Virus record (IMG/VR): IMGVR_UViG_3300031673_011814
Span: 1-24,563 of that record
From: a virus
Reading direction: 5' to 3' (one strand)
DNA length: 24,563 bases
This document shows positions 2,374 to 24,492 of the stretch, piece by piece (position 1 is the first letter of the stretch; every line of letters starts with the position of its first letter). Position numbers and translations under genes: made by a program. The notes beneath the pieces are model-generated. The model had not been told where the DNA came from. It ran no database searches and saw only the letters and a list, made by a program, of their open reading frames with translations.

Positions 2374-2379
2374 TTATTT
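2362..2379 (-). promoter_or_regulatory. Late-type promoter motif upstream of tRNA-like region
   Basis: The minus strand reads AAATAATATATATTTATA, a variant of the AATTTATATTT motif found before many genes here. It overlaps the stop of the sulfotransferase gene and faces the tRNA-like gene. Read on the plus strand it contains TATAAATA, so orientation is not certain. Confidence 0.4.
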
Positions 2380-3036
2380 GAAGCTATAATTGAAAAAATC
2401 TATGTCTGATTTGCATCTTTTTTCAACTATTTCTTGAGTAGTTGTATTATAGTACTCAGTGTAGTGTTTTTTCTCTTCTGGCTTTATCAAATCTAAAATT
2501 TGTTCAGGGACAACCTTATATTTATTACAAATCCACTCAAAATTATTTTTAACATTGAAAAAATGTCCTTCATAATATTTAAGAAGTTTAACATCATCGC
2601 TTAATTTTAATAATTCTTTTAATTTTTCAAAATCTTCTACGATATTTTCAAATCTTCCTATAAATCCAATTTTTTCTGTAGGATGTGCAATGGAATCGTA
2701 TTGGTTGATAGAAGGCTGCTCATGTTTCTCTGGATGGAAATTAATCAAAAAATGTTCAAACCCTTTCAGCTTTTGATCTAAGTAATACGGTGATTTCCAA
2801 ATAGATACAAGCCGACTCCATGGATTTCTAACAAAAACAAAAGAGAGATAAAGTTCTGTGAAACAAATCTCTTTGTAACGTTTTAATGCATCTACAAGCG
2901 TTATATGTTTTGCGATACCCTTTTTATAAATATCTTTGGGTTTAACAAAATCCTCGCCAAGTAAAGATTTTTCGATACTTGTTCCACCCGTGCGGGGAAT
3001 ATGTATGAATATAAATTTATGCTTGTGATTTATCAT
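2374..3036 (-). CDS. Sulfotransferase (Sulfotransfer_2 type)
   Basis: 220 aa. The N-terminal strand-loop FIHIPRTGGTS is the PAPS 5'-phosphosulfate loop, and FVFVRNPWSRLVSIW is the 3'-phosphate motif of membrane carbohydrate sulfotransferases. The family transfers sulfate from PAPS to sugar or lipid hydroxyls; a phage copy probably modifies a host glycan or a phage structural sugar (inference). I use the ATG at 3036, because its ATGA overlap with the upstream 25-codon ORF and the strand-first N-terminus (MINHKHKFIF) fit the family; a longer frame to 3075 would add 13 unrelated residues. A second, unrelated sulfotransferase lies at 13325-14020. Confidence 0.85.
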   Translation of the reverse strand: MINHKHKFIFIHIPRTGGTSIEKSLLGEDFVKPKDIYKKGIAKHITLVDALKRYKEICFTELYLSFVFVRNPWSRLVSIWKSPYYLDQKLKGFEHFLINFHPEKHEQPSINQYDSIAHPTEKIGFIGRFENIVEDFEKLKELLKLSDDVKLLKYYEGHFFNVKNNFEWICNKYKVVPEQILDLIKPEEKKHYTEYYNTTTQEIVEKRCKSDIDFFNYSFK

Positions 3037-3110
3037 ATGAAATAAATCAATGACACGATCCCACCGACTACACAAAGTTCAATCATAAAAGCATTAATAA
3101 TACCTTCCAT
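3033..3110 (-). CDS. 25-aa membrane peptide
   Basis: A tiny ORF starting MEGIINAFMIELCVVGG, essentially one hydrophobic helix (residues 4-25). A G-rich GGGGG site lies about 6 nt upstream, and its TGA overlaps the sulfotransferase ATG (ATGA), so it is likely translated at least to couple the next gene. Function unknown. Confidence 0.5.
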   Translation of the reverse strand: MEGIINAFMIELCVVGGIVSLIYFI

Positions 3111-3299: not shown

Positions 3300-4124
3300 C
3301 TATAAAGCACCAATTCTTATCATCTCGTCTTCAATTTCATGGACAAGATTTATAAACGTATAGTTACGTTTTAACTCTTTGGTACGATTTATAGGCAAAG
3401 GTACATGATAATGTTTTTTGATGTTCCCCGGATTCTTACCCATGATGTAAATATCATCCCCCAGATAAACAGCTTCGGGAATGTCATGAGTTACAAAGAC
3501 TATTGTGGGCTGTATGTCATTCCATATCTGGGAAAGGAGATCCTGCATGTTAAGCCTTGTGTGTACGTCTAACGCCCCAAAAGGTTCATCCATTAAGACA
3601 ATGCGGGATTCATAAACAAGGCTCCTAGCAATGGCTACACGCTGTAGCTGACCACCTGAGAGCGTTGGATACTGAGCATACTTATTTTCATGTCCATCTA
3701 ATCCAACTTTCTGAATCATCGCCATTGCTTTTTCATGTCTCTCCTTTTCAGGAGTGCCATTGTAAGTCAATCCCAAAGCAACATTATCAAGAACAGACAA
3801 CCAAGGAAATGAAGAATACTGCTGAAACACCATACCTACACGGTTATCATTTGTTCTAGGCTTAGTATCAATAAGAATTTCGCCTGAAGTAGGTTTCTGT
3901 AATCCGCTGATATATCTAAGGATGGTTGATTTCCCAGAACCACTCCCCCCAAGTATAACCACAAACTGTCCTTGGTTAGATTTATTTTCAACCAATAAAT
4001 TAAACCCCTTAATGATAGTTGTTTCATTTCCATCATCATCGGTATACACCTGACTGATATCTTTTAACTCAATAATATCAGGCAATGTTGTATTTATAAA
4101 TGTTACTGCTTGCTGTTCCGTCAT
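3300..4124 (-). CDS. ABC transporter ATPase, NitT/TauT (SsuB/TauB) type
   Basis: 274 aa, full family length. All nucleotide-binding motifs are intact: Walker A GGSGSGKST, Q-loop VFQQYSSFPW, signature LSGGQLQR, Walker B IVLMDEPFGALD and H-loop VTHD. The sequence resembles ATPases of nitrate, taurine and alkanesulfonate importers. It would energise the permease encoded at 4433-5224 on the cytoplasmic side. The start overlaps the stop of the zinc-ribbon gene (ATGA), so it belongs to the long operon that begins with the coiled-coil genes near 8563. Catalytic competence is likely; the imported substrate cannot be told from sequence. Confidence 0.92.
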   Translation of the reverse strand: MTEQQAVTFINTTLPDIIELKDISQVYTDDDGNETTIIKGFNLLVENKSNQGQFVVILGGSGSGKSTILRYISGLQKPTSGEILIDTKPRTNDNRVGMVFQQYSSFPWLSVLDNVALGLTYNGTPEKERHEKAMAMIQKVGLDGHENKYAQYPTLSGGQLQRVAIARSLVYESRIVLMDEPFGALDVHTRLNMQDLLSQIWNDIQPTIVFVTHDIPEAVYLGDDIYIMGKNPGNIKKHYHVPLPINRTKELKRNYTFINLVHEIEDEMIRIGAL

Positions 4125-4312
4125 ACAACTACCTTAAGACTTTCTAAAAATTCTTCTTTCGTAAGACCGTCACAAAACACGCATCTTCCACCAGCAATAT
4201 CTTCTTCACACCGCTCACATTGTTCAATGACGGTTTGGTTTTTAAACAAATCATTTTTTCGCCTGATGGAAACAAACGATAATTTATTCTCCGTCAACGT
4301 ATCCCCATACAT
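4121..4312 (-). CDS. 63-aa zinc-ribbon protein
   Basis: Contains CERCEEDIAGGRCVFC, two CxxC pairs typical of a small zinc ribbon. I place the start at 4312 (MYGDTLTENK) because AAGGAG lies 9 nt upstream; the frame is open to a TTG at 4342 but lacks a ribosome site there. It lies between the 41-aa membrane peptide and the ATPase, overlapping the latter by 4 nt. Not part of known NitT/TauT importers; role unknown. Confidence 0.65.
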   Translation of the reverse strand: MYGDTLTENKLSFVSIRRKNDLFKNQTVIEQCERCEEDIAGGRCVFCDGLTKEEFLESLKVVV

Positions 4313-4317
4313 ATCAA

Positions 4318-4443
4318 TTATCTCCTTTTCCATAAAACACAAATCTTTTCCATTAAAACTTTAGCAACCCATACGCAACAAGAATGCAAAAGAGCACCAA
4401 TAAAAAGTACAAAAAATATAATGAAAAATACTTTAAGTGACAT
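4318..4443 (-). CDS. 41-aa membrane peptide
   Basis: Starts MSLKVFFIIFFVLFIGALL, a single N-terminal membrane helix, followed by CCVW and a basic tail ending WKRR. It overlaps the permease stop by 11 nt, and its last codons contain the AAGGAG site of the next gene. Tight packing supports translation. It may be a small accessory subunit of the transporter; this is inference from position only. Confidence 0.55.
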   Translation of the reverse strand: MSLKVFFIIFFVLFIGALLHSCCVWVAKVLMEKICVLWKRR

Positions 4444-5224
4444 ATTTATATTTGAATAATTTTTTATCTACCCAATAAAATATCTTATCTTGGACAAAGC
4501 CAATTATAACAATAGTAAAAAGGAGTGCCATGACTTTATCAACCCTGCTCTGTCGAGAAGCTTGATAGATCATGGCACCGATCCCCCCCTCTGCATTCAC
4601 CATTTCAGCTATAATAATATATGTCCAACTAATGGCCACCAATACCCGGATGTCATCAGACAGTTTAGTCAAAACTGCTGGAAAGAACACGCTCCTAATC
4701 ATTTGCCACTTAGTTGCGCCTAATGTAAAGGCAGTCTGTTGATATACATCCTCTACTTCAGACACCCTTTGAACAACAACAGGAAGGAGATAAACAATAA
4801 TACCGAAAGCGAGGAATTGCACCTTCATTAATATTTCGATACCAAACCAAACCACAAAAAGACCTGTCACTGCTGTTAAGGGAACGAACCGGATAGCATT
4901 AACATGATTTTTAAAAGCTGCATTGAATCCGGGGAACAAACCTATCACAAAACCAATAGGTATGCAAACAAGAATTGCCTCTATGTAACCCATGTAATTT
5001 AGTTTCAATGAATAAATAATATTTAAAACTAAACTATCATTGAAATGGAGTTCACCAAAAGAACCCAATACTTTAAAAGGAGATGGAAAAATACCAGCAG
5101 GAATTAAACCTGTAACTGTGACACTAGCCCACAGAGAAAAAAGAATGACTAGGCCAACGACACTTAACGTTCGCCTAGTCTTCTTATCTAAAGAGCCACG
5201 TATTTCAAATAGCTCAGATACCAT
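4433..5224 (-). CDS. ABC transporter permease, NitT/TauT (SsuC/TauC) type
   Basis: 263 aa with about six membrane helices. The cytoplasmic EAA loop is recognisable (TAFTLGATKWQMIRSVFFPAVL), the interface with the ATPase. Size and pattern match BPD-type permeases of nitrate/sulfonate importers, which work as homodimers in the inner membrane. The start overlaps the stop of the solute-binding protein gene by 1 nt (TAATG). Together with the 3300-4124 ATPase and the 5224-6801 binding protein it makes a complete importer. Confidence 0.92.
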   Translation of the reverse strand: MVSELFEIRGSLDKKTRRTLSVVGLVILFSLWASVTVTGLIPAGIFPSPFKVLGSFGELHFNDSLVLNIIYSLKLNYMGYIEAILVCIPIGFVIGLFPGFNAAFKNHVNAIRFVPLTAVTGLFVVWFGIEILMKVQFLAFGIIVYLLPVVVQRVSEVEDVYQQTAFTLGATKWQMIRSVFFPAVLTKLSDDIRVLVAISWTYIIIAEMVNAEGGIGAMIYQASRQSRVDKVMALLFTIVIIGFVQDKIFYWVDKKLFKYKYVT

Positions 5225-6801
5225 TATTGCCTGACTAACTCAAAATCAGTTCTTCTATTTTGAGAAAGGCAATCTTCTGAATCATCAAAACAAACGGGTG
5301 CGTCTGGGCCATTACCGACAACAATAAACCTGTTGCGGTCAAAACCCTGACTAGCTAAAAAGTCAGCAACTGATTTGGCCCGTTTGCGGGAAAGGATAAC
5401 GTTATTACCACGGCTACCAGTTTTATCAGTGTTTCCTTCAATTCTTATATACATATTGGAAAATGATCTGGCGTTGGGAACAAATTCATTCTTTATGGTA
5501 ACTTGGGCTGTTTTATCCAATATATATCTTCCTGTGGGAAATGTAATACTTATTGGTTTTGAAGCAAATGCTTCGGCCTGTTGAACCTTTGGGGGTGCTT
5601 TAACAAACCTAGCACCGCCCTCACCTGAATGGTTTCCAGATGCAGTTAAATTTACCGCTTGAAGAACAGAAACATCCGTCACTGCACTAAAAGTTGGTGT
5701 GCGGGAACCACTGGTTAAACCCTTTGACTGATATATTCTTTTCATCCGGTTATACAATTCCTTACCATTCACCTTAGTGTAACTTGGATTCAATCCAAAG
5801 AAATTTAAGTTATCACCATATGTAGTTAAGCGAACATTATTTATAGCAGCCATTGCATCATCTTTTGAAACACTTAAACCTTCAGCCAATATACCAGCAG
5901 CCTGATCTTTAGCTTGGGAATTACTGTTTATTTCAGCAGCACCCTTCAACCAACCTTCAACCAATTGAGTAAGTTTTTGTTTATTGTTATCAAGGTATTT
6001 ACGTTTCACTAAGAAGCCATCAGCAATGATATGTGTAGCATCTCTTGTATTGGCTAATATTTTTGCGCCTGATACTTCCTGAACACATATTGCATCATCG
6101 GGACTCCAAACAACAGCAGCATCTACCTTACCTGCCTTGAAATGATCAGCAGCCATGATAGCATCTTTTACTTTAACGATTTGAATATCAGCATCAGACA
6201 TTCCATTGGCATCCAAGAAATAAATCAGGAATGAATGTGAAGGACTTCCCTGAAGAACCGCTACTTTCTTTCCTTTTAAATCTTTTGGTTTGTCGATAAG
6301 TTCACTAACCACGATTGCATCACCGCCCCGGCTCCAATCTGCCTGAAACAGGAAGATAGGTTCGTAATCTGATAATCCACCAGACTCAGTTGGGAATGCA
6401 TCTATAGTTACCCAGAGCAGGTCTACATCACCACTTTTAAATGCTTGGCGAGATACATCAAAATCATCCAGAACTTTAAAGTATACATCAAATCCATATT
6501 GTTGTCTGAACTGTGATTCTGCATTAGGTTTAAAGCCACGGTTAAAATATTGACCTCCAGCATAACCACCCCACGTCACGACACCAATTTTAATAGCATC
6601 CTTGGGTACACTTTTCATCTCTTTTGCGACTGCTTTAGCCTGTTTTGCAACAGATACATCACCACCAGTAGAAGCTATTTCATCATCACCAGACGGTGGG
6701 ATGATCTTGTCTTTGAACTTTACATATCCCACGAATAGGGCGATTGCTATAACAGCAAAGATTGCAATCTTTCCTGCTGGTTTTATTTTTCCTTTAGCCA
6801 T
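5224..6801 (-). CDS. Membrane-anchored NMT1-like solute-binding protein fused to OmpA domain
   Basis: 525 aa. Residues about 11-27 form an uncleaved-looking membrane anchor; a Ser/Lys-rich linker follows. Residues about 70-360 are a NMT1/THI5-like periplasmic binding domain of the NitT/TauT class. A linker with FVKAPPKV leads to an OmpA-like C-terminal domain (about 415-525) with GNTDKTGSRGNN, LSRKRAKSVADFL and the peptidoglycan-contacting NRRTDF. The protein would span from inner membrane to cell wall. This fusion is unusual for an importer, whose binding proteins are normally free or lipidated. AAGGAG lies 8 nt before the ATG. It precedes its permease and ATPase and follows a PspA-like protein. 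Confidence 0.88.
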   Translation of the reverse strand: MAKGKIKPAGKIAIFAVIAIALFVGYVKFKDKIIPPSGDDEIASTGGDVSVAKQAKAVAKEMKSVPKDAIKIGVVTWGGYAGGQYFNRGFKPNAESQFRQQYGFDVYFKVLDDFDVSRQAFKSGDVDLLWVTIDAFPTESGGLSDYEPIFLFQADWSRGGDAIVVSELIDKPKDLKGKKVAVLQGSPSHSFLIYFLDANGMSDADIQIVKVKDAIMAADHFKAGKVDAAVVWSPDDAICVQEVSGAKILANTRDATHIIADGFLVKRKYLDNNKQKLTQLVEGWLKGAAEINSNSQAKDQAAGILAEGLSVSKDDAMAAINNVRLTTYGDNLNFFGLNPSYTKVNGKELYNRMKRIYQSKGLTSGSRTPTFSAVTDVSVLQAVNLTASGNHSGEGGARFVKAPPKVQQAEAFASKPISITFPTGRYILDKTAQVTIKNEFVPNARSFSNMYIRIEGNTDKTGSRGNNVILSRKRAKSVADFLASQGFDRNRFIVVGNGPDAPVCFDDSEDCLSQNRRTDFELVRQ

Positions 6802-10562: not shown

Positions 10563-11258
10563 ATGAAAAAAGATAAATATTTAACAAGTTTACGTTCATT
10601 TTCAGGTGTTTATTGCATAAAAAATATCAAAAATAAAAAAGTATATGTTGGTAGTTCTATTTCTATTGGAAAAATGCTCAGTATACATAGATCACGACTC
10701 CGTGGTGGATATCATCCAAATTTACATCTACAACGTTCATGGAATAAATATGGTGAAAATTCTTTCATTTTTAGAATGCTTGAAATTGTACTGTGTGAAA
10801 GTGAAGTAAGAAACCGTGAACAATTTTGGATCAACTCATGGAAAGTTCTCAATCCAGAGAAGGGATATAATACATGCCCAGATGCAAAAGGAAGTAGAAG
10901 AAGTGAAGAAACAAAAAGGAAAATAAGTAAGGCTAAAAAAGGCGTTCCTATGAAAAAAGAAACTAAAATAAAATTAAGTATAGCTAGAAAAGGAAAACCT
11001 TCGAATTTAACTTCCGAGGGAAGACAAAAAATCGGAGATACTTCTAGAAAAAGAAAAGGTATTTGGAAACATAGTGAAGAAACAAAAAGAAAAATAAGCA
11101 CATCTAAAAAAGGAAAAGTTGTTAGAAAAGGGTTTACATTATCGGAACGACAAAAACAATTTTTAAGAGAGTACCAACTTAAAAATCCAACTAAAAAAGA
11201 TCCAATAACAGGTAGATTCATTTCACACCCTAAGAAGAAAATTCAACCAAATAATTAA
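10563..11258 (+). CDS. GIY-YIG homing endonuclease with NUMOD3 repeats
   Basis: 231 aa, the only credible plus-strand gene. The N-terminal GIY-YIG domain (about residues 14-100) has GVYCIKNIKNKKVYVGSS and a later NREQFWI with the catalytic Glu region. Lys/Arg-rich NUMOD3-type DNA-binding repeats follow (SEETKRKISKAKKG and again SEETKRKISTSKKGK, with a third degenerate unit between). This is the Seg-like free-standing homing endonuclease architecture. Opposite orientation and a 29-nt tail-to-tail overlap with the PARP gene mark it as a later insertion. A weak AAGGT ribosome site precedes the ATG. Confidence 0.9.
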   Translation: MKKDKYLTSLRSFSGVYCIKNIKNKKVYVGSSISIGKMLSIHRSRLRGGYHPNLHLQRSWNKYGENSFIFRMLEIVLCESEVRNREQFWINSWKVLNPEKGYNTCPDAKGSRRSEETKRKISKAKKGVPMKKETKIKLSIARKGKPSNLTSEGRQKIGDTSRKRKGIWKHSEETKRKISTSKKGKVVRKGFTLSERQKQFLREYQLKNPTKKDPITGRFISHPKKKIQPNN

Positions 11259-12561
11259 GATTGCATCTATCGGTTGAATAAACAATCATCTCGTTGTTCA
11301 TCACTCCTGACTTACGTGCTTTAGCGAATGTAGAATCATATCCGGGTTTTGGAAAATTGTGAGATGGGCCAGATGGTACATAATACTTTCCCATAGCTGC
11401 GGAGCATAAAAACATAAAACAATTATTATCTGTAGAACCATGTCCCCAATATCCTTGAGCGTAGTTCAATGATTTAGTGCTTTGATCTGAGAAATAAATA
11501 CCATCTCCGAACATACGACCAGTAACATGTGATGCTGAAGACTTAGGAATTACTAAACCACCCTTAAGAATAGAAAGCACGTTTTCTACACGAGTTCCAT
11601 GCCAAAGTTCCATAATATTCCCAATTTTTTTACTGAATTTTTCAAAAGCGTTTTGCATAATTTCAATTTCTACCGTATATATCTTTTTGATCCCTAATTT
11701 GTATGATGTATGCATCCTATTTCTTGTTTTATTATAGAAAGCTTCAATTCTTTTAAATTCTCTCCTATTATCCATAACATCCAATTTGACATTGAATATC
11801 TTAGGTGTATCTGTTTTCTTTTTGGTCTTCTTTTTAGCATCATCATCGCTACCACTTAACACCTGCTGAAGAGAAGCATCCAAAGCATCAAGAAGCTGAC
11901 CTTCTTTTTGAAATGCATCGGTATCAGGCAAAATGTCTTCTGGAGTAAGCTTTCTCCCCACTTTCCGAGGTATTAATTGAATGTATTGTTGTAACATATC
12001 AACGAAGTCGGAATGACCATATTGGCTCTTTTGAACATATGGCACCAGCTTATCCAGAAGACCTCTTGCTTCATCTATTCCATCTTGGGTTACAATACCC
12101 AACGGTGTTTTAAAAACTCCCTTAGAAGTATCATACTTCATCGTAGTGGACGAAGTAATATTGTGAATATTTTGTTTGGACAGGTATTTTATAAGTTTTG
12201 CGGTATCAGGAGATGTGGATGAAATTTGCTTCAATGCAACGCTTTCAAGATTGGCACCCGCTGAAATAACCTGTGTGACGTTTTCACCGCTGCCACCACC
12301 ATTATCATCATCTAATATACCTTTAAACTTTACGTACCCTTTTCGGGGGGATTGTTTTTCCCTAATTTTTTTATCCCAAAAGGCTTCAGCAGCTTCCATT
12401 GAACTGAATTCTTTTATTGGTTGGATTTGACCGTTTGTTCCGACACGGCCATTGAATACGTGGACACTTGCATCATCAAAAAGCTGGATTTTCCAAAATT
12501 TATTGTTGTTTCCAGCAACGTTTGATTTGATATACATCTCTTGTTTTACCAGATTTGCCAT
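11230..12561 (-). CDS. WGR-domain poly(ADP-ribose) polymerase
   Basis: 443 aa. Residues about 1-80 are a WGR domain, but the name-giving WGR is NGR (N37-G38-R39-V-G). Residues about 120-235 resemble the helical PARP regulatory domain (KTPLGIVTQDGIDEARGLL, LIPRKVGRK). A Lys-rich linker leads to the catalytic domain (about 255-443) with the full H-Y-E triad: LWHGTR (H321), FGDGIYFSD (Y356), NNEMIVY (E424). It should transfer ADP-ribose from NAD, and the Glu is compatible with chain extension. The target could be host protein or nucleic acid. It has an early-type promoter and a good GGAGTAAGAG ribosome region. A NADAR protein is encoded 3 kb upstream. Confidence 0.9.
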   Translation of the reverse strand: MANLVKQEMYIKSNVAGNNNKFWKIQLFDDASVHVFNGRVGTNGQIQPIKEFSSMEAAEAFWDKKIREKQSPRKGYVKFKGILDDDNGGGSGENVTQVISAGANLESVALKQISSTSPDTAKLIKYLSKQNIHNITSSTTMKYDTSKGVFKTPLGIVTQDGIDEARGLLDKLVPYVQKSQYGHSDFVDMLQQYIQLIPRKVGRKLTPEDILPDTDAFQKEGQLLDALDASLQQVLSGSDDDAKKKTKKKTDTPKIFNVKLDVMDNRREFKRIEAFYNKTRNRMHTSYKLGIKKIYTVEIEIMQNAFEKFSKKIGNIMELWHGTRVENVLSILKGGLVIPKSSASHVTGRMFGDGIYFSDQSTKSLNYAQGYWGHGSTDNNCFMFLCSAAMGKYYVPSGPSHNFPKPGYDSTFAKARKSGVMNNEMIVYSTDRCNLNYLVEFSS

Positions 12562-13324: not shown

Positions 13325-14020
13325 TTAATCTTCGAAAAAATTTTCCCATTCTGTATTAATGAATTTTTCTTTAAGTTCCCAGTAGTTTGTAATTTCGTCA
13401 TGTAACTTGACAGTTCTGACTTTGCATATATTATCAATTTTTTTTCGTGGGATATTTAAAAGATCTTGTATGTTGTAAATTACTTTATCGTAATCTGCGT
13501 ATAAGTCTTCATAATAAATTACAATAATATTATGTGATTTAAATAAGTCATGGTACTTTTTTTCATCCTCCGTTATATTTAAGAAATTTCTCAAACATTT
13601 TTCGTGGGATAAAGTTACTTTTATGTTTTTTTTACATGCATCATGTTCAGAAAAAGTAGCCCAAGATTGTGTAAGCATTGCCTTTTCAAATGATGCGACA
13701 ACCCTTAAAAGATTTCTCCGTTTTAATTGAATAATTCTTATATATTTTTTTTCACCTAGATATGCCCAAATCTGTTTTAATTTACCTGTTTGGGCATGAT
13801 CGTAATGTAGCTTAAACCCCTTAATTGATATTTTTTTATTAAGTGCCGTATTAAAAAACCTTTTTAAAAATTTAATTGGTTCTGAGGATTTTTCTGTGGT
13901 TACATTAATATTATTAAAAATTTCATCGGCACAATAAACCCCATCGAGTTTATTCATTATTTTGACCAACAGCGTTGAGCCAGTTCGTGGTCTGGAAAGA
14001 ACTATAAATTTCTCATCCAT
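13325..14020 (-). CDS. Sulfotransferase (Stf0-like)
   Basis: 231 aa. The N-terminal RPRTGSTLL is the PAPS-binding 5'-phosphosulfate loop; IIQLKRRNLLRVVASF supplies the 3'-phosphate contacts, and IIVIYYEDLYADYDKV is the typical late strand. This arrangement matches Stf0-like trehalose/lipid sulfotransferases rather than the Sulfotransfer_2 type encoded at 2374-3036. It would use host PAPS to sulfate a small molecule, lipid or glycan. No signal peptide, so cytoplasmic. Short spacing to the PD-(D/E)XK-like gene downstream. Confidence 0.8.
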   Translation of the reverse strand: MDEKFIVLSRPRTGSTLLVKIMNKLDGVYCADEIFNNINVTTEKSSEPIKFLKRFFNTALNKKISIKGFKLHYDHAQTGKLKQIWAYLGEKKYIRIIQLKRRNLLRVVASFEKAMLTQSWATFSEHDACKKNIKVTLSHEKCLRNFLNITEDEKKYHDLFKSHNIIVIYYEDLYADYDKVIYNIQDLLNIPRKKIDNICKVRTVKLHDEITNYWELKEKFINTEWENFFED

Positions 14021-15549: not shown

Positions 15550-15996
15550 CTACTTTAATTTCTCCCTAATTTTCATTAAACGACTGACAAATTCTTGCTC
15601 AGTGAGAATCGTATCATTTGGTTTTTTTGTTCCAATGTGGTGCGTTAGAACAGCGTTTCCAGTGGCCAATAAGGCTGCTCTGGCCTTTTTATTTTGTTTG
15701 AATAGTTCTTCATATGCTTCATCTAAAATGGCTTGATACACCTGAGAATGTCTGTCAATGGGATTGCCTAACATCCATAAGATTTGCTTTCTTTTCCAAT
15801 TCTTCTTGCTTCCTTTTTCCTTGGCCATTCTTCCAACTAACGAAAACATATGCAATTGCATATCAGGATTTTTGTACTTCAAACCCTGCAAAAAACCCTC
15901 CATCGAATTAACTGGATGACCACGAAATATAAAAGGGTGGGGAGCAAAATTGCTCAACGCATTAGCGGGATATTTTTTTCTTGAATGAACATCCAT
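15550..15996 (-). CDS. NADAR-domain protein
   Basis: 148 aa, one NADAR domain end to end. The core ALSNFAPHPFIFRGHPVNS followed by MEGFLQGLKYKN matches the N-terminal signature (LSNF, G, S-x-E, Q-x-x-K), and the C-terminal AVLTHHIGTKKPNDTILTEQEF matches the terminal motif. NADAR proteins handle ADP-ribose linkages; some are antitoxins removing ADP-ribose from DNA guanine or act in NAD-related conflict. Its presence near a PARP gene suggests an ADP-ribose writer/eraser relationship (inference). It starts 5 nt after a late-type motif. Confidence 0.85.
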   Translation of the reverse strand: MDVHSRKKYPANALSNFAPHPFIFRGHPVNSMEGFLQGLKYKNPDMQLHMFSLVGRMAKEKGSKKNWKRKQILWMLGNPIDRHSQVYQAILDEAYEELFKQNKKARAALLATGNAVLTHHIGTKKPNDTILTEQEFVSRLMKIREKLK

Positions 15997-19123: not shown

Positions 19124-19483
19124 TTACTCGTAGAAATCTACCGCACCAATTAACATATCCGTTACCCCTTCAGTTTCTTCATAATACTTAGTGCTCTTTG
19201 AACACGCTTGTTTAGTATCTCCACGTTGAGCATGAATTTTTACTGCCCATTCAACTTTTTCACCCCATTTCCACTTTATAAAAGGATCAGATAAAACAGA
19301 CACTCCATAATATGTGTGTAAATACTTGCAGTCACCGTTGTAAGTTCTAAATATAATTTTTTTAAAATACGAGTCTTTAATAATATCCCTCTTACCACAG
19401 GAACTGAACTGTTCAATTAATCTTGAAAAGATTTGATCGATGCAGAATTCTAGGATTTGATGCTTAAGGAAAATTTTAATCAT
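19124..19483 (-). CDS. Dispersed member of the LKH/NF array family
   Basis: 119 aa. The first 26 residues align without gaps to the array proteins at 21197-24492: MIKIFLKHQILEFCID ending in ..EQF, with the invariant L6-K7-H8, E12, I15 and F26. The rest is different, containing SYFKKIIFRTYNGD and ending AVDFYE, which resembles the VDF-type tail of other members. It is about 1.7 kb from the array and lies after a 71-aa Cys-rich gene, so it was probably separated by insertion of tRNAs and small genes. Function unknown. Confidence 0.75.
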   Translation of the reverse strand: MIKIFLKHQILEFCIDQIFSRLIEQFSSCGKRDIIKDSYFKKIIFRTYNGDCKYLHTYYGVSVLSDPFIKWKWGEKVEWAVKIHAQRGDTKQACSKSTKYYEETEGVTDMLIGAVDFYE

Positions 19484-20586: not shown

Positions 20587-20820
20587 TCAACATACTTTCA
20601 CAAACGTATCTCCTTCCATTGCTTTTCTAATGTATCTCATTAAATTAATAGCCTTATGTTCCGCATTAAAACATGCGCTGCCAATATCTTTCTTGTCATC
20701 GACATTAACCGGAAACATCCATTTAGGTTTTCCTTCAACAATAATCTCATAATACAGCTCCCCACATTTGTAAAAAGCGAACCTCGCTGTATTTCCTTTC
20801 ACTATTTCTAGCATTTTCAT
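20587..20820 (-). CDS. Conserved-looking 77-aa phage protein
   Basis: Starts MKMLEIVKGNTARFAFYKCG and has WMFPVNVDDKKDIGSACFNAEHKAINLMRYIRKA. The pattern FPV-x-DD...A-x-F...KAI-x-MR-x-IRKA is one I associate with small proteins found in many large phages, but no function is known to me. GGAAGGAATG precedes the ATG. It sits between a tRNA-like gene 16 nt upstream and tRNA-Glu 6 nt downstream. Confidence 0.7.
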   Translation of the reverse strand: MKMLEIVKGNTARFAFYKCGELYYEIIVEGKPKWMFPVNVDDKKDIGSACFNAEHKAINLMRYIRKAMEGDTFVKVC

Positions 20821-21151: not shown

Positions 21152-21196
21152 TCATCCGATTTCATACAGCAAATGTTTTAGTACGATTTTAATTAT
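21152..21196 (-). pseudogene. Decayed N-terminal copy of the array family
   Basis: Directly after the stop of the 21197-21490 gene the frame reads IIKIVLKHLLYEIG and stops. The Met codon is ATA, and the copy ends at residue 14. It matches the family N-terminus at K3, L6-K7-H8 and E12. Confidence 0.8.
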
Positions 21197-21490
21197 TTAA
21201 AAAAGTTCCAAAATCTGGTTTTTATATATTCCCGTACTTGCACGATCATGACATATATCTGGCCAATCATATCTAATAACTATCTCCACTTCACCATTAT
21301 ATAAATGTTCATAGAGGACAACTGCCCTTTTAAATTCTTGTATTTCACCTTCCCTGTTTTTGTACCGTATCATATTATAATAAGCACCGACTGACAGTTC
21401 TGGTTTCTTTCTAAAATTTTTCCGAATAGCTGAAAAAACCCGTTCAATACAAATTTCATAAATCAAATGTTTCAGTGCGATTTTAATCAT
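21197..21490 (-). CDS. Array family protein A
   Basis: 97 aa, shortest member. Family N-terminus MIKIALKHLIYEICIE ending KNF at 26; then a variable part with YYNMIRYKNREGE, FKRAVVLYEHL and a tail QILELF that only weakly resembles the VDF-type ending. It overlaps gene B by 4 nt (ATGA) and is the last intact copy in transcription order. Confidence 0.85.
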   Translation of the reverse strand: MIKIALKHLIYEICIERVFSAIRKNFRKKPELSVGAYYNMIRYKNREGEIQEFKRAVVLYEHLYNGEVEIVIRYDWPDICHDRASTGIYKNQILELF

Positions 21491-21822
21491 AACTTTTCAA
21501 AATCAACAATATCATACCTTTCGACATTTACCTCAGAATGATTAATTTCAGGGTGGTAATTAGAAAAGTCATCCTCCCGATAAATAATTCTAACCCCCCT
21601 GTAAGAAATTTTTAAAAAGGTATTACTAACATCTGTTATTTCAATATTGTACATAATATGATATAAAGGGCTTTTTGGGGCATGTACTCTTAACCAATTA
21701 AGTTTATCTCCGGTTTTGATATTACGAGTCTTGTTTATCATAAAAAAATTTCTACCAATGCTATTAAGCATTTGTTCAATACAAACTTCAAATATCAAAT
21801 GTTTTAGTGCTACTTTAATCAT
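21487..21822 (-). CDS. Array family protein B
   Basis: 111 aa from the ATG at 21822, chosen by alignment to the family and by a TAATG overlap with gene C; the frame is open 11 codons further. N-terminus MIKVALKHLIFEVCIE, RNF at 26, then NIKTGDKLNWL and a variable middle, ending YDIVDFEKL. Confidence 0.87.
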   Translation of the reverse strand: MIKVALKHLIFEVCIEQMLNSIGRNFFMINKTRNIKTGDKLNWLRVHAPKSPLYHIMYNIEITDVSNTFLKISYRGVRIIYREDDFSNYHPEINHSEVNVERYDIVDFEKL

Positions 21823-22223
21823 TATTTTCTTTGAAAATCTATTACAAATTGACAATTCAAAAGTGTATTAATAATCCAACGACCTGTCCTATAGTTAGAA
21901 GTTATACTTCCTACCACTTCTCCTTTGCTATTTAATTTTTCATAAATATTTGCTTCTATATAAAAAGCGCACTCATTATGTTCACCAAGATGTACCTCAG
22001 TTACTACACATCCACGGTACATCACAACATCAATTTTTCTTTGCGCATATTCTTCCTGAGAATTTGCCCACTCGTATGTTATGCTATCAAACTTATCTCC
22101 CACTTTAACTGGCCTTAGACCTTTTATAATTTTCCGTGGCATTGGGAAATTTTTTAAAACATTAATAAAAAACTGCTCAATACAGGCTTCAAAAACCCAA
22201 TGTTTCAACGCAACTTTAATCAT
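21822..22223 (-). CDS. Array family protein C
   Basis: 133 aa. N-terminus MIKVALKHWVFEACIE, KNF at 26, then PVKVGDKFDSITYEW, a long variable middle with CVVTEVHLGEHNECAFYIE, and the tail FVIDFQRK. It overlaps the 55-aa gene by 8 nt. Confidence 0.87.
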   Translation of the reverse strand: MIKVALKHWVFEACIEQFFINVLKNFPMPRKIIKGLRPVKVGDKFDSITYEWANSQEEYAQRKIDVVMYRGCVVTEVHLGEHNECAFYIEANIYEKLNSKGEVVGSITSNYRTGRWIINTLLNCQFVIDFQRK

Positions 22224-22383
22224 GTCTCAAATGTCTAGTCAAATGATCTGCAAGGGCATACAGACTTTCTTTATCTTTCTTTTCTTTGCATTTTTTAAAA
22301 TCAATTATATTTTTCTTGGGTTTTTCTTCCCTATCAAAAGGTAATTCTAATTGTTCCCATTCTTTTTCCATTTTTCCCACCAT
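22216..22383 (-). CDS. 55-aa protein embedded in the array
   Basis: Starts MVGKMEKEWEQLELPFDREE and continues with a Lys-rich stretch, then ALADHLTRHLRHD. Not related to the array family. The QLELPFD segment followed by a Lys-rich region is common in small phage proteins. It starts 2 nt after the stop of copy D and overlaps copy C by 8 nt, so it is translated in the same operon. A second ATG at codon 5 is possible. Confidence 0.6.
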   Translation of the reverse strand: MVGKMEKEWEQLELPFDREEKPKKNIIDFKKCKEKKDKESLYALADHLTRHLRHD

Positions 22384-22385
22384 GT

Positions 22386-22730
22386 TTAAGAGGATTTAGC
22401 GTGACCGATAATATGGTGACTGTGAATGAACGAAATACTACGATGATAACCCGGAGTAGTAACGCTGCCAATTCCTAAACGATAATAAAGTCTCTGCTGT
22501 GATATTATATCAATACCATAGTCTTCTACATGAATAATTTCACAATCAAGATATGAAATATATCTGAATCTTTCATTGAACCATCTACTTCCTGTATTAA
22601 TACTTATATGACTATACTTATCACCAACCTTAAATTTAGGGCTTGGTAATTTAAAATTGTTAATAATGTTACTGAACAGTTGTTCAATACAGACTTCAAA
22701 AATAAAATGTTTCAGTGCTACTTTAATCAT
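22386..22730 (-). CDS. Array family protein D
   Basis: 114 aa from the ATG at 22730, chosen by family alignment and the 4-nt overlap with gene E; the frame is open to 22754. N-terminus MIKVALKHFIFEVCIE, NNF at 26, then KFKVGDKYSHISI, a CEIIHVEDYGID strand and a His-rich end (HSHHIIGHAKSS) unlike the other tails. Confidence 0.86.
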   Translation of the reverse strand: MIKVALKHFIFEVCIEQLFSNIINNFKLPSPKFKVGDKYSHISINTGSRWFNERFRYISYLDCEIIHVEDYGIDIISQQRLYYRLGIGSVTTPGYHRSISFIHSHHIIGHAKSS

Positions 22731-23044
22731 TTTCGAAATTCTTTTATCGACCAATATTTAATCCAAACACTATTACAATATCTATTTCCCTCAACATACC
22801 ATCCACGAAAATCCAAAGAATACTTACTTTCTCTGGTAACTACACAATCAATAAAGCTGTAATCCCCATCCCCCCTTCCATCCCCCATATCAAGATCATA
22901 AGAGACAACTGATTTAAAAGTGTCTCCCTTTTTTAAAGCAAAAACATCTCTGGGAATATTACGCTTAAAATTTTTTTCAGTAAAAGAAAATAAAACATTT
23001 ATACATACTTCAAAAATCCAATGTTTAAGAGCTACTTTAATCAT
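22727..23044 (-). CDS. Array family protein E
   Basis: 105 aa from the ATG at 23044 (TGATG overlap with gene F); a TTG one codon earlier is less likely. N-terminus MIKVALKHWIFEVCIN, KNF at 26, then ALKKGDTFKSVVSYDL, a DGRGDGDY turn, CVVTRESKYSLDF, and the tail SIKEFRK. Confidence 0.86.
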   Translation of the reverse strand: MIKVALKHWIFEVCINVLFSFTEKNFKRNIPRDVFALKKGDTFKSVVSYDLDMGDGRGDGDYSFIDCVVTRESKYSLDFRGWYVEGNRYCNSVWIKYWSIKEFRK

Positions 23045-23457
23045 CAATATTTCTGGTAATCTACGATACCATCTTTTATTATTTTATATTCATAATCACC
23101 CCAACCATGATGTTTTCCACCAAAAGAGTAACCATAATACCATTCCCCCTTGTATATCTTACCGAAGTGATATCCTTCATAACAATATGGTAATACATGA
23201 TCAATGCTAGATACAGTAACGTGAAATCTTGTGCAATTACCCTCTGGAAATCCTTCTTTATCAATATGTCTGATTATTGCATCATGATAAATTCTCATGC
23301 TGTGGTCAATTGGTTCATTTTGTTTCAAGGTTATCTGTTTGAAACTATCCCCCACCTTCCAACCAGATATGTTTGGCTTGAAATTTTTGTTGATCATTGA
23401 AAACAATTGTTCGATACAAATTTCATAGACCAAATGTTTCAACGCAATTTTAATCAT
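23044..23457 (-). CDS. Array family protein F
   Basis: 137 aa, longest member. N-terminus MIKIALKHLVYEICIE, KNF at 26, then GWKVGDSFKQITLKQ. The middle has an extra Gly/Tyr/His-rich stretch (WYYGYSFGGKHHGWGDYEY). Tail IVDYQKY. It overlaps gene G by 4 nt. Confidence 0.87.
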   Translation of the reverse strand: MIKIALKHLVYEICIEQLFSMINKNFKPNISGWKVGDSFKQITLKQNEPIDHSMRIYHDAIIRHIDKEGFPEGNCTRFHVTVSSIDHVLPYCYEGYHFGKIYKGEWYYGYSFGGKHHGWGDYEYKIIKDGIVDYQKY

Positions 23458-23750
23458 TTTCTCAAATCAACTACGGTACGCACATATATCCAACCACAAA
23501 AACATCTCTGGGAATCACGTTTATCAGTAAGAAAAGAACCATCTACTTTAATATCATTTTTTTGAATGGTTGCATCGTAAAGATTTTTCCGCTCACCATT
23601 ATTGTCTATATACACAATACGCCTGTATACCTCGCCCTTCTTGATGTTGTAAGGATTAAGTGGAGTTGGTACAAAATTTTCGTTGATAATTGTAAAAAAT
23701 TGATTAATACAAATTTCACAAACAAAATGCTTCAACGCTATTTTAATCAT
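23454..23750 (-). CDS. Array family protein G
   Basis: 98 aa. N-terminus MIKIALKHFVCEICIN, ENF at 26, then NIKKGEVYRRIVYIDNNGE, a DATIQKNDIKVDGSF strand pair, CFCGWIYV and the tail VVDLRK. It has its own GGAGAT ribosome site in an 11-nt gap after gene H, the only real gap between adjacent family copies. Confidence 0.87.
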   Translation of the reverse strand: MIKIALKHFVCEICINQFFTIINENFVPTPLNPYNIKKGEVYRRIVYIDNNGERKNLYDATIQKNDIKVDGSFLTDKRDSQRCFCGWIYVRTVVDLRK

Positions 23751-23761
23751 CTATATCTCCA

Positions 23762-24124
23762 TCACGGTATAACGTTAACTATTTCTTCAAAATTTATCCT
23801 GTAATCCATAGCATCAGGAAAATCCTCAGAAGAAGCGGATAGGTTTACCGGAGTTGCATTCCCAGTGTGTGGATCATATTCTGACCAACTCATATGTCTG
23901 ATACACACTGTTCTTTCTATTGTATCCATTATTTCACATTGATACAAATGTAGCCCCACCAATCCTATCTGAGATGGGTGGTGAACAGTTATTTTAGCAT
24001 AACGATTCCCGGTTTTTATATTCCATAAATTTTTTTTAACGACCATAAAATTTTTAAAAACACCAGTAAAAAACTGTTCAATACAAACTTCATAAATTAG
24101 ATGTTTTAAAACTATTTTTAACAT
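23762..24124 (-). CDS. Array family protein H
   Basis: 120 aa. N-terminus MLKIVLKHLIYEVCIE, KNF at 26, then NIKTGNRYAKITVHH, a CEIMDTIERTVCI strand pair and a variable end DYRINFEEIVNVIP. It overlaps gene I by 7 nt. Confidence 0.86.
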   Translation of the reverse strand: MLKIVLKHLIYEVCIEQFFTGVFKNFMVVKKNLWNIKTGNRYAKITVHHPSQIGLVGLHLYQCEIMDTIERTVCIRHMSWSEYDPHTGNATPVNLSASSEDFPDAMDYRINFEEIVNVIP

Positions 24125-24492
24125 TTGCTTGAGACAGCTAAAATATTTCGGTAATAAACTGTCATATCCCCTTCAACCGTACCACGCACTTCTTCTGCGC
24201 CATTATCAAATATATCTTTAAATTCACCAGCATCTACAGTGAAATATCTTTTTTTAATACTTGTTACAGTGCAATCAAATAAATAAGATTTAAGGTTACT
24301 CCCAGAAGCATAATAAATATAGTAAAATCTACTACCTACCCTTACATCATACAATGTCCTATTATAACCAAATCGTTGGCCATATTTTATATTATGTGAT
24401 TTGTTTAAATTAAAGAAATTCTGATCAACGCACTTGAAAAATTGCTCAATTGCTACTTCGCATAACCAATGTTTTAGAGCAACCTTCATCAT
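24118..24492 (-). CDS. Array family protein I
   Basis: 124 aa, first visible copy in transcription order. N-terminus MMKVALKHWLCEVAIE (Ala in place of Cys14), QNF at 26, then NIKYGQRFGYNRTL, CTVTSIKKRYFTVDAGEF and the tail AVSSKC. The first of two ATGs keeps the 26-residue alignment. No good Shine-Dalgarno is visible, so it may depend on coupling to the upstream gene ending at 24502. Confidence 0.86.
   Translation of the reverse strand: MMKVALKHWLCEVAIEQFFKCVDQNFFNLNKSHNIKYGQRFGYNRTLYDVRVGSRFYYIYYASGSNLKSYLFDCTVTSIKKRYFTVDAGEFKDIFDNGAEEVRGTVEGDMTVYYRNILAVSSKC

Follow-up and report, generated by a model that had tools for sequence, protein, structure and literature searches.

What would lead a virus to keep a row of genes whose products share their first 26 residues and differ in nearly everything behind them? 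This question is raised by a virus record of 24,563 bases (IMG/VR IMGVR_UViG_3300031673_011814), which is called the window in its full length below. Ten open reading frames (ORFs) on its minus strand encode proteins with a common, ungapped N-terminus of 26 residues; nine of them form an array at positions 21197-24492, and one is dispersed at 19124-19483 (Table 1). As judged from the sequences of these proteins and of their relatives in other phages, the N-terminal helix is a constant tag to which interchangeable bodies are joined. We tentatively favor, with somewhat less than even confidence, the reading that this tag is a docking module and that the body attached to it is a variable bait or blocker in a conflict between phage and host or between phage and phage.

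The common N-terminus was examined by sequence searches with single copies and with profiles. A search with a single copy retrieves all nine of the others at E ≤ 2e-6, and a 26-column module profile, in the building of which the window copies were included, detects every window copy at E values of 6e-16 to 2e-12; these scores rule out chance as the origin of the common N-terminus. An earlier note, made from the letters of the window alone, had described this N-terminus in the same ten genes, with L6-K7-H8, E12, I15, and F26 as invariant residues and with bodies of 71-111 residues. The alignment agrees with all of this and adds K3 to the invariant residues, and the first 26 columns contain no internal gap. 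The mean identity within the window is 59% for the module, compared to 17% for the aligned columns of the body. Where the amino acid is the same, codons of the module are shared at a frequency of 0.64, slightly above the expected value of 0.545 ± 0.03, indicating that the synonymous sites of the module have not reached full saturation; the bodies are nearly unalignable, and at 17% identity a formal ratio of nonsynonymous to synonymous substitution rates is not meaningful for them.

In the 26 modules now available, the most conserved positions are M1, I15, F19, N25, and F26, followed by H8, E12, C14, K3, and L6. The conserved positions span approximately three quarters of the helix circumference, and the variable positions 9, 13, 16, 20, 23, and 24 make up one stripe. 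Moreover, the hydrophobic moment of the helix (0.16) is not raised in comparison with that of shuffled helices (0.20). The broad conservation and the unraised hydrophobic moment would suit a helix enclosed by a partner or an oligomer better than one that lies on a membrane.

The bodies in the window are, for the most part, of one type. The AlphaFold2 model of array gene 6, obtained with nine relatives, has a mean predicted local distance difference test (pLDDT) score of 79 and a predicted template modeling score of 0.56, and consists of one helix at residues 2-25, with a pLDDT above 90 over the first 20 residues, followed by a small SH3-like β-barrel. The model of gene 8 again shows a helix at residues 2-25 and strands, but it is too weak (pLDDT 65) for a separate fold claim, which was dropped. 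In leave-one-out profile tests of the bodies, for which the underlying alignment had been built with all members, eight of the ten bodies (genes 1-4 and 6-9) beat all 500 shuffles, whereas gene 5 is borderline and the dispersed copy fails. The view that the proteins are homologous throughout, with a fast-changing body, thus stands for these eight copies and is not supported for the dispersed one. The suggestion of one shared small β-barrel is borne out with good confidence by gene 6 and weakly by gene 8, but it does not hold for the whole family because unrelated bodies are found on the same N-terminus in other phages. In a structure search of the PDB, the best matches of the barrel come from Sm, LSm, Hfq, and further small barrels; the Z values of 6-7 are at a level typical of generic small barrels, and naming the barrel family from these matches was rejected. 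The best match among viral structures in Foldseek is no lower than E 0.047.

Relatives of the module were found by way of a PARP-like neighbor gene, degenerate DNA patterns, and profile rescoring, and all of them lie on metagenomic contigs. They comprise 16 further module proteins from seven more phage lineages, giving eight lineages and 26 proteins in all; two are found in G002, five in G022, three in L032, two in G021/G019 (the second in G021), two in L031, and one each in L041 and G023. The heads of these phages are of different kinds. G022 is T4-like (Gp23 at E 7.7e-69 and Portal_T4 at E 1.4e-79), L041 has a P22-type coat protein, to which one in L031 is similar, and in G023 the terminase, portal, and head genes are arranged much as in siphophages. 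On the contigs with P22-type or siphophage heads, no prohead protease gene was seen between portal and coat. A PARP gene lies near the modules in the window, G002, and G022, and an AAA+ gene is common to L032, G002, and G022. Homing-type endonuclease genes adjoin the module genes in G002, G022, and G023. In L031, L041, and G023, the module gene is located upstream of the terminase genes and adjoins a gene that appears, by eye, to be sigma-factor-like.

The bodies carried by these relatives differ in kind. Barrel-type bodies are found in most of the window copies, in L041 (z 8.7 between its body and that of gene 6), in one copy of G002, and in two of G022. In contrast to these, the body of the second copy in G021 is a segment of a T4-type portal protein. 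Its Pfam match to Portal_T4 (E 5.5e-11) scores 42.3 bits, where the curated cut-off is 22.9, and it matches the G022 portal at E 4.2e-8 (z 18.6). It aligns with residues 276-321 of T4 gp20 and covers only positions 202-245 of the 433 in the Portal_T4 model, so that it does not amount to a full-length portal with wing, stem, clip, and crown. Copies b and c of L032 carry the same segment of the major capsid protein Gp23. For copy b, the match to Pfam Gp23 (E 1.5e-4, under the curated cut-off) is accompanied by matches to the major head family of PHROGs (E 0.019) and to the G022 capsid protein (E 5e-8, z 19.9); for copy c, the corresponding E values are 0.0017, again under the curated cut-off, and 0.0024, with a shuffle z of 10.0. 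Copy b of L031 contains a CPVC...CNRC pair with a zinc-ribbon-like look, for which Pfam matches stay under the cut-off. As a control, the remaining 23 bodies were compared with the portal and capsid segments and gave no comparable score; a z of 5.7 between L032 copy c and the portal piece is left without interpretation. Because the helix is retained where the body is unrelated, it is not merely a part of the barrel fold. Separately, short frames at G022:33558-33638 and G008:139547-139651 weakly match the same portal segment (the 202-245 region), and a full portal gene is also present.

How, then, could one helix serve such different bodies? In the docking reading, the helix would attach every protein to the same constant partner. 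A host factor is the most likely candidate, because the phages that carry the helix have little else in common. The combination of a constant helix, unrelated bodies, and unrelated heads points to a shared, probably host, partner or to self-assembly, and these two are not told apart by it; the presence of the same helix in T4-like phages and on contigs of P22-coat or siphophage type suggests a partner on the host side. The body would give the changing specificity, acting as bait or blocker for something that recognizes phage parts. Copies bearing portal or capsid pieces might act on a sensor by which the host detects portal or capsid, or on the packaging and assembly apparatus of a competing T4-like phage. 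Most of the portal piece in G021 belongs to the clip domain (279-358 in T4), the attachment place of terminase and neck, and the piece includes residues 288-311. A T4 portal peptide of precisely these residues has been reported to bind gp17 and to inhibit packaging (PMC4493910). In addition, the SpbK defense is triggered by a portal clip domain, to which it binds (PMC12847820), and the trigger of CapRel is a capsid protein (PMC9712102). A helix-tagged clip or capsid piece could therefore either block the packaging of a rival or occupy a host sensor. The barrel copies of the window would be built on the same plan but with a different bait, and their fast-changing bodies fit antagonistic evolution.

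Several observations weigh against this reading. None of the window bodies resembles the capsid or the portal segment, and the bait idea draws on three proteins from two other contigs. The barrel profile, run against 17 phage records, matches array proteins only and no larger phage protein. Furthermore, a self-associating helix could do without any host partner.

The last point leads to the rival in which the copies associate through the helix into a mixed oligomer, as paralogues do in Sm/LSm rings. A helix followed by a five-stranded SH3-like barrel has the outline of an Sm protein, and chains of Sm, LSm, and Hfq are among the top structure matches; the conserved positions 8, 12, 15, 19, 22, and 26 are in heptad spacing, and the copies probably lie within one operon. 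However, Z values below 8 are common for any small barrel, the aligned range begins only at residue 24 and leaves the helix outside the match, the lengths of the bodies span a range of 40 residues, and not all members have a barrel. We regard such an assembly as unlikely. An anti-defense or injected function, as the earlier note had proposed, is plausible. Its injected variant loses weight, however, as P22-type or siphophage heads are encoded on some of the contigs that carry the module, and no prohead protease gene is seen there between portal and coat. In that variant, which we consider unlikely, the N-terminal helix would be a packaging signal and the bodies would be anti-defense proteins that enter with the DNA. 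Module positions 10-12 are always [ILVM]-x-[ED], which we take to be close to the T4 protease motif. The internal proteins Ip1-3 of T4 have the same architecture: they have only an N-terminal leader in common, and their bodies, which are unrelated to each other, act as inhibitors of different restriction enzymes (PMC12373910). On the other hand, the T4 signal is approximately 10 residues long and is removed (PMC7697877), whereas conservation of the module runs on to F26, well beyond any cut after residue 12, and a single packaging tag for such different heads is hardly to be expected.

The swapped bodies might also have no selected role, if the locus were a recombination hot spot at which a conserved gene start captures fragments of phage genes. 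Homing-type endonuclease genes beside the module genes are consistent with this, as are the derivation of the fragments from highly conserved phage genes and the presence of a relic copy. Nevertheless, the open frames are intact in 26 proteins, the barrel body is retained across phages, and the capsid and portal pieces are still typical of their parents in sequence, which makes a mere recombination trap improbable. A membrane anchor, in which the helix tethers the bodies to the host membrane, is very improbable; usually at least 15 of the 26 positions are hydrophobic, but the conserved K7, H8, and E12 in mid-helix exclude an ordinary membrane span, and the hydrophobic moment does not exceed that of shuffles.

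If the helix is indeed a docking tag, it would allow a whole class of phage accessory proteins that change rapidly to be recognized by sequence, and their common partner could be found with one pull-down. The members bearing portal and capsid pieces would also lead to the testable idea that pieces of structural proteins are reused as decoys or as poisons for rivals, given that host sensors are known to recognize such proteins.

A second family with a constant module was observed in G004, a 395-kb phage (L012 record), where at least 20 short ORFs at 90065-135832 have a common C-terminal module (DPxFxPDGI...) and variable N-terminal parts. Two of the N-terminal parts are capsid pieces, 52% and 78% identical to the Gp23 of the same phage; examples in this array are L155:1354-1845 and L154:1165-1707. 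This family suggests that the coupling of a constant module to capsid pieces may have arisen more than once. A wider proposal, which we consider doubtful, is that phages carry arrays of tagged virion-protein pieces, in which a common docking helix would present fragments of portal clip or capsid spine, as well as a barrel, as decoys or inhibitors against host sensors or rival phages. The family in G004, as an independent one, would then mean that this strategy has evolved twice.

The earlier note had recognized no known family, and the database searches are in line with this. The window proteins have no meaningful match in Pfam, NCBIfam, or PADLOC, only weak ones in PHROGs (E 0.019 or worse), and none in the PDB by profile. 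The best PADLOC value among them (E 0.0034) is too weak for membership in a defense-related family, and HD, Vezatin, DUF7718, ZorC, and Cas7f (E 0.003-0.1) were rejected for the window copies, being far under the cut-off and differing from copy to copy. No match to the whole window was found in phage records by a near-identity search, and nothing meaningful was obtained when two copies and the consensus module were searched against the proteins of isolated phages. The module pattern was found at 27 loci in 84,980 species genomes, a number close to the chance estimate, and none was convincing on scoring; within the reach of this single pattern, neither host genomes nor prophages give evidence of the module. 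The same scan gave no host protein that would explain the helix, which we count as neutral. A literature search on phage arrays with a constant N-terminus and a variable C-terminus found no description of this family.

The nine genes of the array, which the earlier note had called adjacent, are not strictly so, as there is one break between copies six and seven, where an unrelated ORF of 55 residues is located. This ORF has no match in a PHROGs search, and its QLELPF bears a resemblance, by eye, to a sliding-clamp binding motif. Adjacent copies overlap by 1-8 bases or are separated by gaps of a few bases, an arrangement that fits a single operon, from which all array copies would probably be produced together. 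Some of the ORF starts assigned mechanically (TTG) are located upstream of the start of the module, which is, for example, at 22730 rather than 22754 and at 21822 rather than 21855. The decayed eleventh copy is genuine but short. The array ends 71 bases short of the contig end (24563), so that more copies may be missing.

Table 1. Module genes of the window, with the relic and the inserted ORF; body values are from the leave-one-out tests against 500 shuffles.
Feature	Position	Strand	Length (residues)	Description
Array gene 1	24118..24492	-	124	Helix module MMKVALKHWLCEVAIEQFFKCVDQNF at 24415-24492; barrel-type body; body 0/500
Array gene 2	23762..24124	-	120	Helix module and barrel-type body; 7-base overlap with gene 1; body 0/500
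Array gene 3	23454..23750	-	98	Helix module and barrel-type body; body 0/500
Array gene 4	23044..23457	-	137	Helix module and barrel-type body with the longest insert; body 0/500
Array gene 5	22727..23044	-	105	From ATG at 23044; helix module; body borderline, 5/500
Array gene 6	22386..22730	-	114	From ATG at 22730; helix module and barrel body; modeled copy (AlphaFold2 pLDDT 79)
Array gene 7	21822..22223	-	133	Helix module and barrel-type body; body 0/500
Array gene 8	21487..21822	-	111	From ATG at 21822; helix module and barrel-type body; body 0/500; weak AlphaFold2 model (pLDDT 65)
Array gene 9	21197..21490	-	97	Helix module and barrel-type body; body 0/500
Relic of eleventh module	21152..21196	-		IIKIVLKHLLYEIG-stop; ATA in place of the start codon; directly after gene 9; weak match in single-copy search
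Dispersed tenth copy	19124..19483	-	119	Clear helix module; body 92/500, barrel type not supported
ORF without module	22216..22383	-	55	Between copies six and seven; unrelated to the copies; contains QLELPF

Other genes of the window were noted in passing. A complete protein with WGR, PARP regulatory, and PARP catalytic parts is encoded at 11230-12561; related proteins are present in isolated phages, for example XacN1, and in at least 12 viral contigs. Approximately 3 kb from this gene, a Gp30.3 family protein with weak NADAR similarity is encoded at 15550-15996, and the two are possibly a paired writer and eraser of ADP-ribose. A gene of 77 residues at 20587-20820 belongs to PHROGs family 20427, and a similar gene of 83 residues (L135:12739-12990) adjoins the PARP gene of G022. 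Positions 3300-6801 hold a transporter-like operon with an ABC ATPase, a permease, and a fusion of an NMT1-type binding protein with OmpA, the last of which matches one PHROGs family over its full length. Two sulfotransferase-like proteins are encoded at 2374-3075 and 13325-14020, and a similar-looking one is present in a module-bearing contig (L042:2732-3373).

Among known systems, T4 gp20 is represented by its clip domain and gp17-binding peptide (288-311) in one module protein of G021, which is a short helix-fused piece and not a portal. Likewise, two module proteins of L032 carry the stretch of T4 Gp23 around the spine helix, limited to approximately 40-50 residues and, for the single proteins, to scores below the Pfam cut-off. 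The Sm/LSm/Hfq proteins, with a helix and a five-stranded bent sheet, may resemble the predicted fold of the window copies, a small five-stranded barrel preceded by a helix; they differ in that the structural match reaches only Z 6-7, the array helix is much longer and unaligned, and there is no Pfam or PDB sequence match, though distant Sm-like proteins can escape profiles. The leader of T4 Ip1, Ip2, and Ip3 has approximately 10 residues, is cleaved, and is confined to T4-type heads, whereas the module extends over 26 residues to F26, is also found on P22- and siphophage-type contigs, and is joined to bodies that include capsid and portal pieces. Conservation of the module does not stop at a T4-type protease site, since C14, I15, F19, N25, and F26 lie behind the only candidate site, and for this reason the module is not classed here with the capsid targeting sequences. 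What the module proteins have in common with the T4 internal proteins is a short constant N-terminal leader on otherwise unrelated bodies, here a 26-residue module with swapped bodies, together with several copies, variable loci, and, in the reading favored here, a role in the conflict with host defense.

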